Assembly (NCBI RefSeq): GCF_016592575.1
Contig: NZ_AP017470.1
Coordinates: forward strand, 372,001 to 436,000
Direction of reading: 5' to 3'
DNA length: 64,000 nucleotides
Origin: Thermotomaculum hydrothermale
GTDB lineage: Bacteria; Acidobacteriota; Holophagae; Thermotomaculales; Thermotomaculaceae
The notes beneath the pieces were generated by a model. That model was not told the DNA's origin. It saw only the letters and a list, made by a program, of their open reading frames with translations, and made no database searches. Both the position numbers and the translations under genes were made by a program. Of this stretch, positions 29,715 to 36,112 are shown piece by piece. Numbering within the stretch: position 1 is the stretch's first letter; each line of letters starts with the position of its first letter.

Positions 29715-30934
29715 TTTAAGAATTCCTTTCTCAATAAGTCAAATGCGCGGGATGTTGATTGTTGCCTTACCATTTCTCTATTGCCTCTGAAATTGTATTT
29801 TTTTACAACAGTTTTTTCTTTTGAAGATGCTGCAATATAGACCAGACCAGCAGGCTTTTTCTCTGATTGAGAGGGGCCGGCAACTCCGGTTATCCCTATT
29901 CCAAAGTCAGAGTTAAATAGTTTTCTAACATTGTTTGCCATAAAAAATGCAGTTTGTGCAGATACAGCGCCAAATTTTTCAATTGTTTTTTCAGGAACAT
30001 TCAGTATGTTTATCTTTGCCTCATTTGAATAACTTACAATCCCGCCTAAAAAAGCCTTTGAACTTCCGGGAATGTCTGTTATAAGTTTGCCTAACCATCC
30101 CCCTGTACAGGATTCAGCAAAGGCAACAGTTTTGTTTTTTTCAATCAGCAAATCAAGAACCGCATTTTCAAGGAATATGTCTCCGTATCCAAAAAAAACG
30201 TCAGGAAATTTTGATATTACCTTTTTTGAAAATTCTTCCACCTTTTCTTTGTCAAAGCCAGAAAGTATTACCTGAACCTTTCTTAAAGACGCTAAAATTG
30301 CATAAGTTATCCCATTTTCTTCAAAATCTATTTCCTTTAATGTATTGTCAATTATTGCTTCAGGGATTGATGCAAAGTTCATTGAGATTGAAAATCTTTG
30401 TGGCAATTTGTATTTTTTATTAAGTCTTTCAATGACAAAGTTTTCAATCATATACTGCATTTCCCTTGGCACTCCAGGAAGGAGAATAATTGTTTTCCCA
30501 TTGCATTCTAAAAATATTCCAGGTGCAGCCCCGGGCCCGTTTGGAATTGGAATAGCATTTTCAGGGATTAAAGCCATTTTTTTAGAGTTTTCAGGAAATG
30601 CAATCCCCCTGACTTTAAACCTTTCCTTCAGATTTTCAAGTATTTTTTCATCAAGTTTAAGGGACACTTTGCAAAGTTCAGCAACCACCTCTTTTGTGAA
30701 ATCGTCTTCAGTGGGTCCCAATCCCCCTGTTGAGATGACTATATCAACCCTGTTTATTGCTGTTTCAAATGCGTTTTTTAAACTCTCCCAATTGTCTCCA
30801 ACAACAGTTTTGAAAGAGACTTCAATTCCAAGTTTGTTCAGGTGTTTTGTTATAAAAAGGGAGTTTGTGTCAACCTTTGAAGCCCCTAACAATTCGCTCC
30901 CTATTGCTATTATTTCTGCAGTTACTTTTTTCAT
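29711..30934 (-). CDS. cinA: CinA-family protein (MoCF domain plus nicotinamide-nucleotide amidase domain)
   Basis: 407 aa, standard length. N-terminal molybdopterin-binding-like domain (IIAIGSELLGASKVDTNS, STGGLGPTEDDFT, NGPGAAPGIFLE, LLPGVPREMQYM) and C-terminal PncC-type deamidase (VAFAESCTGGWLGKLITDIPGSS, GITGVAGPSQSEKKPAGLVYIA). It recycles NMN and probably repairs ADP-ribose derivatives. ATG overlaps the purD stop by 4 bp. Confidence 0.95.
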   Translation of the reverse strand: MKKVTAEIIAIGSELLGASKVDTNSLFITKHLNKLGIEVSFKTVVGDNWESLKNAFETAINRVDIVISTGGLGPTEDDFTKEVVAELCKVSLKLDEKILENLKERFKVRGIAFPENSKKMALIPENAIPIPNGPGAAPGIFLECNGKTIILLPGVPREMQYMIENFVIERLNKKYKLPQRFSISMNFASIPEAIIDNTLKEIDFEENGITYAILASLRKVQVILSGFDKEKVEEFSKKVISKFPDVFFGYGDIFLENAVLDLLIEKNKTVAFAESCTGGWLGKLITDIPGSSKAFLGGIVSYSNEAKINILNVPEKTIEKFGAVSAQTAFFMANNVRKLFNSDFGIGITGVAGPSQSEKKPAGLVYIAASSKEKTVVKKYNFRGNREMVRQQSTSRAFDLLRKEFLK

Positions 30935-32191
30935 ATTACTGCTATATCTTTCCTGAAAAACATTCCCTTAAATTTAATCTGCTTTAAAAACCCGTACGCT
31001 TCTTTTCTTGCTGATTCAACATCTGGTGCAAGGGCTGTTACTGATAAAACCCTTCCGCCATTTGTTACAAGTTTCCCTTCTTCATTTAATTTTGTTCCTG
31101 CGTGAAATACAATTATGTTTGAACTTGTGGGTTCAGGCAGGTTTATCTCAAAGCCTTTTTCGTATTTTCCAGGGTAACCCCTTGAGACTGCAACAACATT
31201 AACAGCCACATTGCTTGATATTTTAATATTCCCTTCAAGCTTGCCCTTTGCAACAGACAAAAGCAAAGGCACAATATCGTTTTCAATTCGCGGCAGTATT
31301 ACCTGTGTTTCAGGGTCGCCAAACCTTACATTAAATTCAAGAACAAAAGGTCCTTTTTTTGTAAGCATAAGACCGAAGAATACAGTTCCTTTGAAATTAA
31401 TTCCTTCCTTTTTCAAGCCTTCCATAAATGGTTCTATAATTTTATTTTTAATTGTTTCTTTCGTTGTTGCGTTTATTTGAGGTGAGGGAGATACCGCCCC
31501 CCATTCCCCCTGTGTTTGGCCCTTTTTCTCCGTCGTAAATCTTTTTATGGTCTTTTGCGCTTGGCAAAATAATATAATCATTTCCATCTGTAATTATGTG
31601 AATTGAGGCTTCCCAGCCAACTAAAAACTCTTCAAGAACAACCTTTTCTCCAGCATCTCCAAATTTTTTGTTATCCATTAATTCTGTTATTGCATTCATT
31701 CCCTGAACAATATTTTCGCAAATAACAACTCCCTTTCCGGCAGCAAGGCCGTCTGCCTTGATTACTGTAGGGCAGGTTATTTCCCCGCTTCCTATGTAAT
31801 TCCTTGCTTCAACAGGGTTTTCAAAAACAACATACTTTGCAGTTGGGATATTGTATTTTTCCATAAATTTTTTGGCAAATATTTTAGAACCTTCTAAAAT
31901 TGCCCCCTCTTTTTTAGGTCCATAGATTAACAGCCCTTCTTCTTCAAACCTGTCTGCTATGCCTTCCACAAGAGGTTGCTCAGGTCCCACAACAGTTAAA
32001 TCAATCTTGTTGTTTTTTGCAAAATCAATAAGTTTGTCAAAATCTGTTGGCTTTATATCAACGCGCTCAGCAAGGTTTGCAATTCCTGCATTTCCCGGTG
32101 CACAGTAAATTTTATCAACCAAAGGTGATTGTGAAATTTTCCACGTTAATGTGTGTTCCCTTCCTCCGCTACCAATAATAAGAACTTTCAT
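30931..32191 (-). CDS. purD: Phosphoribosylamine-glycine ligase, interrupted by a frameshift
   Basis: GAR synthetase of purine synthesis, an ATP-grasp enzyme. The N-terminal frame (32191-31448) starts MKVLIIGSGGREHTL and runs to GPNTGGMG. The C-terminal frame (to 30931) resumes at AVSPSP and holds FKGTVFFGLML and FVLEFNVRFGDPETQVILPR. The break is a run of six C (plus strand 31497-31502; G6 in the gene). Five G would give the canonical TGGMGAVSP and one protein of about 420 aa. Homopolymer error is likely. The ATG at 32191 is preferred over 32197, which touches the GGGAG RBS. Confidence 0.88.
31497..31502 (-). other. Six-C/G run, site of the purD frame change
   Basis: Dropping one G from ATGGGGGGC restores the conserved GGMGA(V/Y)SP block of purD. 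With six the frame runs on into about 13 unrelated residues and a stop. Confidence 0.8.
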
Positions 32192-32432
32192 AACCATCTC
32201 CCAGCCTGATTTTTTTCCATACCCTTATTTAACAACAATTAGCTTTAAAAAGCAATAACAGACTATTTTTTTCTCTTAATAAGTTTGAACTTAAATGGCT
32301 AAAAACAAGAGAAAGAAAAAAATATTTCTGTGGTATGAAATTCAAAGGTTACTCTCCAACTAAATCCACAAAATTAGAATTAACATTGCAGAGGATAGGA
32401 AATAGAAATTGATTTTACTGTATTTAAAAGTG

Positions 32433-32461
32433 AAGTAAAAAAGAGGGGGAAACTCCCCCTC
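32433..32461 (-). terminator. Terminator of the small unknown gene
   Basis: Minus strand: GAGGGG/CCCCTC stem (plus-strand 32444-32449 and 32456-32461), followed on the minus strand by T7. It begins at the stop codon of the 95-aa gene. Confidence 0.75.
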
Positions 32462-32747
32462 ATTCTTCAATGCACACAATTTTTTTTACAAGTTTAATTT
32501 TGTGTTTAAGTGACATGGAATATTTGTCTCCAATTTCTGAGATGTCAATATCTCTGTCCATAAACTCATTATGAAGAGCAGCAAGATATGCACCCCGTGC
32601 GCTTCCCCAGCCTGGATTTCCAACCTCTCTGTTAAATGCTTCAATTAGTTCTGCATCGCTCATTTTCTCAAACCTTGCCTTAAATTCGTCAAAATAATCC
32701 TGCGGGGTAAAGAATTTCCCGTTTTCGTGATGTTTCTTTTCAGCCAT
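32460..32747 (-). CDS. Small cytoplasmic protein of unknown function behind an attenuator leader
   Basis: 95 aa, not recognised. It begins MAEKKHHENGKFFTPQDYF, is highly charged and probably helical. It has a central GNPGWGSARGAYLAALHNEF block that looks conserved, and a Lys-rich C-terminus ending CIEE. No membrane segment. Strong RBS (AAAGGAGG) and its own terminator. Its 5' leader carries a terminator/antiterminator pair, so expression is probably controlled by premature termination. Identifying the leader's ligand would be the best route to a function. Confidence 0.6.
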   Translation of the reverse strand: MAEKKHHENGKFFTPQDYFDEFKARFEKMSDAELIEAFNREVGNPGWGSARGAYLAALHNEFMDRDIDISEIGDKYSMSLKHKIKLVKKIVCIEE

Positions 32748-32763
32748 TTTTAAACCCTCCTTT

Positions 32764-32906
32764 CTTTAGAAATAAAAAAACCCGCGCTCCAACTTAGGAA
32801 CGCGGGTTAATTTTTTTCCAAAAATAAATCCCCGCTTTAGCACCCTGTTTATCCTTAACGGAAAGGCCGGGGCAAGTTGGAGCTTAAATCCTCGCCTTTC
32901 TTTTTT
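32764..32906 (-). promoter_or_regulatory. Attenuator / candidate riboswitch leader
   Basis: Leader of about 140 nt (minus strand). 5' part: possible aptamer with CCCCG...CGGGG enclosing a TCC/GGA hairpin. Element GCTCCAACTT (plus complement 32874-32883) is perfectly complementary, over 10 bp, to AAGTTGGAGC in the downstream terminator (32786-32795). Pairing these two would break the terminator. It does not match TPP, SAM, FMN, purine, cobalamin, glycine, c-di-GMP, fluoride or ZTP consensus features that I know. Class unknown. Confidence 0.65.
32771..32808 (-). terminator. Leader terminator of the attenuator
   Basis: Minus strand: CCCGCGTTCC / GGAGCGCGGG, 10 paired positions with a TAAGTT loop, followed by T7. 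It lies between the leader and the RBS of the 95-aa gene, so it must be read through for expression. Confidence 0.85.
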
Positions 32907-32913
32907 CTCTCTT

Positions 32914-32922
32914 ATTATATCA
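32914..32922 (-). promoter_or_regulatory. Extended -10 promoter of the attenuator leader
   Basis: Minus strand: TG-A-TATAAT (TATAAT at plus 32914-32919), an extended -10. The -35 (near 32935-32941, TTAAGA/TTTAAG) is weak. The predicted start is around 32906. Confidence 0.5.
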
Positions 32923-33103: not shown

Positions 33104-33179
<76 letters not shown>

Positions 33180-35673: not shown

Positions 35674-35793
35674 ATGATTATAAAAGGATGTAAATGCAAA
35701 CAGTTTCCATATCTTTCAAATTTAGTTTTGTATCCTAACGGTTTGGATATAACTGAGTTAAATGAAATGACTGAATGGGAGTTTTATGAATAA
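35674..35793 (+). CDS. Small ORF of 39 aa, unknown
   Basis: ATG at 35674 with AGGAGGG 8 bp upstream. The protein begins MIIKGCKCKQFPYL and ends EMTEWEFYE. The stop overlaps the ORF of the zinc-ribbon protein, whose own RBS lies just after. The good RBS and coupling favour real expression, but there is no recognisable family and it may be a remnant. Confidence 0.4.
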   Translation: MIIKGCKCKQFPYLSNLVLYPNGLDITELNEMTEWEFYE

Positions 35794-35806
35794 AAAGGAG
35801 GTGTAT

Positions 35807-36112
35807 ATGGGGTACATTTGTCAATATTGTGGACATAGATCTCCATCTGCAAGTGGAGGATCTTGTTCATACAGTCCTACAAGATCACACGTTTATATCC
35901 AAGAATCATCAAGCGGATATATATGTTCATATTGTGGACATAAATCTTCATCTGCAAGTGGTGGGAGTTGTTCATACAGCCCTCATAAAAAACACAGATA
36001 CATAGTAAAACATGCGGGGCAATACGTTTGCAAATATTGTGGACATAAATCTCCATCTGCAAGTGGTGGGAGTTGTAGTAAAAGTCCTTTCGGAAAACAC
36101 GAGTATATCTAG
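35807..36112 (+). CDS. Triple tandem zinc-ribbon-like protein
   Basis: 101 aa consisting almost entirely of three copies of a 33-36 residue unit: YxCxYCGHKSxSASGGSCSxSPxxxHxYI. Each unit offers C-x2-C plus a later Cys and His, a plausible Zn site. Start ATG at 35807, preceded by AAAAGGAGGTG; the upstream in-frame ATG (35786) precedes this RBS. Related single-unit small proteins exist in many genomes without known function. The near identity of the units implies recent internal duplication. It lies in the accessory island beside the integrase remnant. Confidence 0.7.
   Translation: MGYICQYCGHRSPSASGGSCSYSPTRSHVYIQESSSGYICSYCGHKSSSASGGSCSYSPHKKHRYIVKHAGQYVCKYCGHKSPSASGGSCSKSPFGKHEYI

Follow-up and report, generated by a model that had tools for sequence, protein, structure and literature searches.

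The window, a stretch of 64,000 nucleotides of the Thermotomaculum hydrothermale genome, contains on its minus strand a transcription unit whose order, read from the sequence, is promoter, leader of about 160 nt, ribosome binding site and an open reading frame of 95 amino acids (Table 1). The extended -10 promoter element, the strong terminator with its seven T and the ribosome binding site had been noted by the first-pass annotation, whose coordinates are correct; the terminator, described there with a 10-bp stem, has 12 pairs. No -35 element is present and the promoter was therefore missed by the -35/-10 scan; counterpart -10 elements lie directly 5' of the motif in the related leaders of G003, G004 and L031 (see below), and the RNA is predicted to start a few bases downstream of TGATATAAT, at about 32907. 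A second terminator closes the gene, which therefore forms a single-gene transcript. A tRNA-Asn(GTT) gene, likewise on the minus strand (33104-33179), precedes the leader promoter at a distance of about 180 nt. The shorter loci L002-L004 around the homologous genes yielded no tRNA, and this arrangement is probably not conserved. Elsewhere in the window, purD (30931-32197, minus strand) is apparently split into two overlapping reading frames, one with GARS_N and GARS_A (31448-32197) and one resembling the C-terminal part (30931-31587), which seems to reflect a frameshift or a sequencing error, and a 108-aa reading frame on the plus strand (35786-36112) is built from three nearly identical copies of CxYCGHxSPSASGGSCSxSPxxxHxYI, which may be zinc ribbons.

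Table 1. Positions in the window of the elements of the leader and of the gene that follows it. Pseudoknot strands are predicted pairings.
Feature	Position	Strand	Basis
Extended -10 promoter element TGATATAAT	32914..32922	-	read from sequence
P1 5' strand GAAAGGC	32894..32900	-	pairs with GCCUUUC 32867-32861
L1 third strand GAGGAUUUAAG, holding UUU (32888-32886), putative SAM-II U10-U12 equivalent	32883..32893	-	
P2a 5' strand CUCC	32879..32882	-	pseudoknot pairing with GGGG 32833-32830
Antiterminator 5' strand GCUCCAACUU	32874..32883	-	duplex with 32795-32786, -17.2 kcal/mol
P2b 5' strand UUGCnCC, UUGC as putative SAM-II U20-C23	32869..32875	-	invariant in 4/4 leaders except n = C/A/C/C
P1 3' strand GCCUUUC	32861..32867	-	pairing with GAAAGGC
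Variable stem-loop (P3-like, UUCC...GGA) and A-rich L3	32846..32860	-	alignment of four leaders
P2b 3' strand GGU-GC-U-AAA, GCUAAA as putative SAM-II G42-A47	32836..32844	-	invariant in 4/4 leaders
P2a 3' strand GGGG	32830..32833	-	pairing with CUCC
Intrinsic terminator hairpin AACCCGCGTTCC-TAAGTT-GGAGCGCGGGTT	32779..32808	-	sequence and terminator scan
Antiterminator 3' strand AAGUUGGAGC (terminator loop and descending arm)	32786..32795	-	
Ribosome binding site AAAGGAGG	32756..32763	-	read from sequence
95-aa gene, unnamed protein family, ATG at 32747	32460..32747	-	homologues found
Intrinsic terminator right after the 95-aa gene	32443..32461	-	terminator scan

The encoded protein belongs to a family with the sequence pattern FNREVGNxGW...RxxYLxAL...RxxDxS...SLKxKVxL. 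The earlier description of a small gene without a known family holds, as no Pfam, NCBIfam, PHROGs or PADLOC family matches the protein and its structure model (about 90 aa, pLDDT 83, with three helices and, at the C terminus, a short hairpin) retrieved nothing from the PDB below E = 2.8. Searches of plasmid and phage proteins returned no homologue, and no obviously conserved neighbour gene was seen in the loci inspected by eye. Homologous genes are present in three of the four other genomes of the genus, with protein identities of 67% (G003) and 61% (G004), and in both of these genomes the entire leader is retained. In G001 (L004 / L030) the homologue is truncated, with neither its 5' end nor the leader left, and adjoins foreign sequence resembling an insertion element. 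A further homologue in a Caldisericales genome, of another phylum (L031), has a leader of this kind as well, GAAAGGTGAGAATTTAAGCTTCAACTTGCCCCTGCCTTT...GGGTGCTAAAGCGAAG, with a terminator of its own behind it; among 54 genomes of that phylum the gene occurs in this one only, which suggests that this copy was acquired by transfer. The core is thus shared by four leaders, those of three Acidobacteriota species and that of a Caldisericales genome, the leader being conserved together with the gene in G003, G004 and L031. Its occurrence before homologous genes in both sister species and in L031, and hence in two phyla, shows the leader to be a real element. A model built from the four (R2), which scores them at 85-100 bits, gave over 297 Acidobacteriota genomes only weak matches without the core outside the genus; an A2 match in G167 (L011) was spurious. 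In viral contigs AACAGGGTGCTAAAGCGG was matched 13 times, always within one coding context, TTTAANCTYCAACTTGC was matched 30 times and never followed by GCTAAA, and the combined gapped pattern had no match.

The terminator hairpin comprises 12 pairs including its A-U ends (-22.9 kcal/mol) and is followed by seven T from 32780; the 51-nt segment around it folds far better than its shuffles (z = -7.8). All 12 pairs are kept in the four leaders with three double-sided, compensatory changes (6 of 500 shuffles as good), and the energy stays between -18 and -23 kcal/mol. The ten-base complementarity reported before between 32786-32795 and 32874-32883 is exact: GCTCCAACTT (32883-32874) and AAGTTGGAGC (32795-32786) form 10 Watson-Crick pairs, a run reached by one of 2000 shuffles of the upstream part. 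The duplex is retained in all four leaders (-13.3 kcal/mol in G003, -14.5 in L031), in G004 weakly (-7.3 kcal/mol). The leader therefore contains the two parts that identify an attenuator, a terminator and a mutually exclusive antiterminator, both conserved, and the proposal of a terminator/antiterminator riboswitch leader has good support, the leader being conserved in four genomes of two phyla with both structures maintained. A plain constitutive attenuator, in which the terminator is accompanied by an upstream complementarity due to chance and no ligand is sensed, is a very improbable reading. Nested folding of the upstream 93 nt gave no more structure than shuffles (z = +1.06), in line with such an attenuator and also what a pseudoknot would lead one to expect; the conservation of the majority of upstream letters in two phyla, however, goes far beyond the needs of a terminator, the antiterminator pairing is never lost, and in homologous genes a SAM-I/IV riboswitch takes the place of the leader.

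The upstream part can be arranged as an H-type pseudoknot whose complementarity is in place in the four leaders, 87% of the alignment cells being paired against 37-66% when the strands are slid. P1 measures 7 bp in the window leader, 6 in L031 and 4 in G003 and G004; P2a changes from CUCC/GGGG to CUUC/GAAG in L031, one double-sided change; P2b is formed by UUGCnCC and GGUGCUAA with one bulged U and has a C.U mismatch in three of the four leaders. Covariation in P1 and P2 does not exceed that of shuffles (209/500; four sequences only). A small hairpin after P1 is found in three leaders and is missing from L031. The letters invariant across all four are UUUAA, UUGC and UGCUAAAG. The antiterminator strand CUCCAACUU coincides with the 5' strand of P2, so that the pseudoknot and the antiterminator exclude each other. 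The CCCCG...CGGGG helix that had been proposed to close the aptamer is present in the window, but it did not survive the comparison: across the four leaders its pairing is kept in only 75% of the cells, without any compensatory change. Two other candidates were discarded, a 5' hairpin GAGG/CUCC whose strands do not pair and a 5' GGA/UCC pairing that is possible but conflicts with P2.

As noted before, the leader could not be matched to a known class: no Rfam family reaches its gathering cut-off on it, and an 80-base cmscan gave no match at E<=10. The models RF00521 and RF01726, and the SAM-V model RF01826, which does not reach its cut-off and has no match there, gave nothing above noise at the leader locus. 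In the RF01726 model (L088-L117) a GAU/AUU mini-hairpin within the loop of P1 stands in place of the pseudoknot, which may help to explain missed divergent members. An attenuator controlled by a protein or by tRNA, ribosomal-protein-like or T-box-like, in place of a small-molecule riboswitch deserves hardly any credence. Its traces are weak sub-threshold matches to L20_leader (29.8 bits against a cut-off of 58.7) and to the trpB motif (28.1 bits, far under the cut-off), both rejected since they come mostly from the terminator, and the stretch CAGGGUGCUAAAGCGGGG, which resembles the T-box AGGGUGGnACCGCGG. Against it, Rfam gives no T-box match, neither stem I nor a specifier is present, UGCU stands where UGGN is expected, the letters resembling a T-box are remote from the terminator and take part in the pseudoknot pairing, and there is no leader reading frame with a ribosome binding site.

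The leader closely resembles the SAM-II riboswitches. In these, 13 nucleotides are completely conserved (U10-12, U20, U21, G22, C23 and G42-A47), with U11 and U21 facing the sulfonium and U44 and A47 holding the adenine and the carboxylate (PMC3764141). All 13 are present in the window leader and invariant in the four leaders, the UUU of L1 being invariant here as it is in SAM-II (PMC3764141); the unpaired U of GCUAAA would be the equivalent of U44, the contact to the adenine of SAM. The crystallised SAM-II RNA runs GAUUUAA-CC-GUA-UUGC ... GCUAAA-AA-GGG (PMC8494917), and aligned to it the window leader reads GAUUUAA-GCUCC-AAC-UUGC ... GCUAAA-GC-GGGG; the joints that separate P2a from P2b measure 3 nt and 2 nt, as in this metX RNA. 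Further features shared with SAM-II (RF00521, SAM_alpha; RF01726, SAM-II long loops) are the predicted pairing of the P1 loop with the 3' strand, UGCUAAA with its preceding U, a P2a of 4 bp and the transcription terminator platform; L031, without a hairpin after P1, is like SAM-II in this respect too. SAM-II riboswitches are mostly transcriptional (PMC6061858), and SAM-induced termination has been predicted for the one before S. meliloti metZ (PMC9373788). As a positive control, 28 of 30 Rfam-certified SAM-II (RF01726) loci from Bacteroidota were found to hold UUU..UUGC..GCUAAA. In contrast to SAM-II, P2b (UUGCnCC/GGUGC) is longer here by two C-G pairs, L1 is longer, and the gap between UUU and UUGC amounts to 10 nt in the window leader against 6-7 nt in RF01726 loci (7 nt in 22, 6 nt in 6). 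The leader also differs in its P3-like hairpin (three of four), in its Acidobacteriota and Caldisericales hosts, in escaping both Rfam models and in the unnamed gene that stands downstream instead of a met gene. No report of SAM-II in Acidobacteria or Caldiserica was found in the literature.

The leader has features of SAM-V as well, where U19, U20, G21, C22, n23 and C24 pair with G43...A49 around a bulged U47 and P3 is followed by a conserved A (PMC6061858). The same P2 pattern (U-A, U-A, bulged U, G-C, C-G, n.n, C-G) and the same pocket are found here, with a P2b one pair longer, and a P3 hairpin followed by A is placed between P1 and the 3' strand of P2. SAM-V acts on translation, its P2a of about 2 bp overlapping the Shine-Dalgarno, whereas in the window the platform is a terminator and the longer P2a is placed about 83 nt before the ATG, separated from it by the terminator and without overlap with the Shine-Dalgarno near the start codon. 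A strict descriptor taken from the literature (the 13 letters, a 5-bp P1 and, at the joints of SAM-II, a P2a with 3 bp or more) has one match in the window, at the leader. It occurs 843 times in 804 million bases of random sequence of window composition (both strands counted), that is, at 1.0e-6 per base and strand or about 1e-4 per leader, and 138 times in 400,000 sequences of leader composition; these chance figures are on their own suggestive and not final, because the resemblance was noticed after the conserved letters had been seen. The leader is kept out of RF00521, RF01726 and RF01826 by scores under their cut-offs and by the differing lengths of L1 and P2, and it is, as far as its letters tell, a new variant of the SAM-II/SAM-V superfamily missed by Rfam. 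Of the possible new riboswitch class announced earlier, the absence of an Rfam match stands and the novelty shrinks to a new variant at most, the pocket nucleotides and the topology being those of SAM-II/SAM-V.

A second line of evidence comes from the homologous genes. Directly upstream of the gene in eight of the ten loci found by protein alone lies a SAM-I/IV riboswitch (RF01725) above the gathering score (L025, L032, L033, L034, L037, L050, L082 and L083; L025 is closely related to L050, and L082 and L083 have very low protein identity). The hosts of the homologue loci are Capnocytophaga, another Bacteroidota genome, Sphingobacterium, a delta-proteobacterium and virus-tagged contigs. Both exceptions belong to Sphingobacterium, where the family copies look decayed: L074 has a SAM-I/IV riboswitch followed by a disrupted gene start, L036 has an intact gene behind what remains of the riboswitch, its 3' half, and L035 has neither a riboswitch nor a clear start codon. 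When five such genomes were searched with RF01725, seven sites were obtained, six of them preceding a family member and the seventh (L074) a remnant of its first codons. No RF01725 match was found in the window genome or in the Caldisericales genome at E<=0.001. Since RF01725 lies upstream of the homologues, one gene family appears to stand behind two unrelated SAM riboswitch folds, SAM-I/IV in Bacteroidota and the delta-proteobacterium, with its unrelated junction fold, and the SAM-II-like fold here. RF01725 and RF01726 were reported in a Genome Biology 2010 paper (PMC2864571), in an additional file of which the link between SAM-I/IV and this protein may already be listed.

The pocket and the homologues also bear on the nature of the ligand. 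Riboswitch variants with altered specificity are known in other superfamilies, and the leader could in principle belong to a separate class that re-uses a SAM-II-like core for a SAM-related ligand such as SAH, methionine or decarboxylated or modified SAM; its escape from every SAM model and the longer P2b (two C-G pairs) and L1 would agree with this reading. We consider it unlikely, since every published invariant pocket letter is kept, including U11, U21 and U44/A47 (PMC3764141), and the SAM-I/IV riboswitches of the homologous genes have SAM as their ligand. With the SAM-II/SAM-V pocket present and homologues behind an unrelated SAM riboswitch, the leader very probably senses SAM. From its sequence we infer that the ligand is SAM, how the RNA folds in three dimensions and in which direction it regulates, and the leader is most likely a divergent SAM riboswitch of the SAM-II/SAM-V superfamily acting as a transcriptional OFF switch.

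At high SAM the nascent RNA would fold into the H-type pseudoknot (P1 GAAAGGC/GCCUUUC, P2a CUCC/GGGG, P2b UUGCnCC/GGUGC(U)AA), with UUU as the third strand in the major groove. The pseudoknot would keep CUCCAACUUG in P2, so that the terminator forms and the 95-aa gene is off. At low SAM, GCUCCAACUU would be freed to pair with AAGUUGGAGC in the loop and descending arm of the terminator, and transcription would proceed into the gene. Changes in AAGUUGGAG are expected to lock the switch off. Judging by this regulation, the protein would be made when SAM is low.

The placement of SAM riboswitches very probably ties this protein family to SAM metabolism. We see an even chance of a stronger reading, in which the leader is a class of its own, so far without a name, inside the SAM-II/SAM-V superfamily, and search models can tell it apart as they do SAM-V from SAM-II, a split made on similar grounds (PMC2704228). 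In this reading the 95-aa family would have a dedicated and hitherto overlooked part in SAM homeostasis, would have come repeatedly under the control of unrelated SAM riboswitches and would be made only at low SAM. Because the three SAM-II/SAM-V models of Rfam miss the leader, the superfamily would reach further than current annotation, extending to thermophilic Acidobacteriota and Caldisericales. In the genomes examined this family is always the target of SAM-I/IV, which suggests that the Bacteroidota SAM-I/IV riboswitches there serve to control it. Two structurally unrelated SAM sensors would converge on one small family without name, domain or structure, and this convergence gives the family a metabolic context in which its function becomes directly testable.
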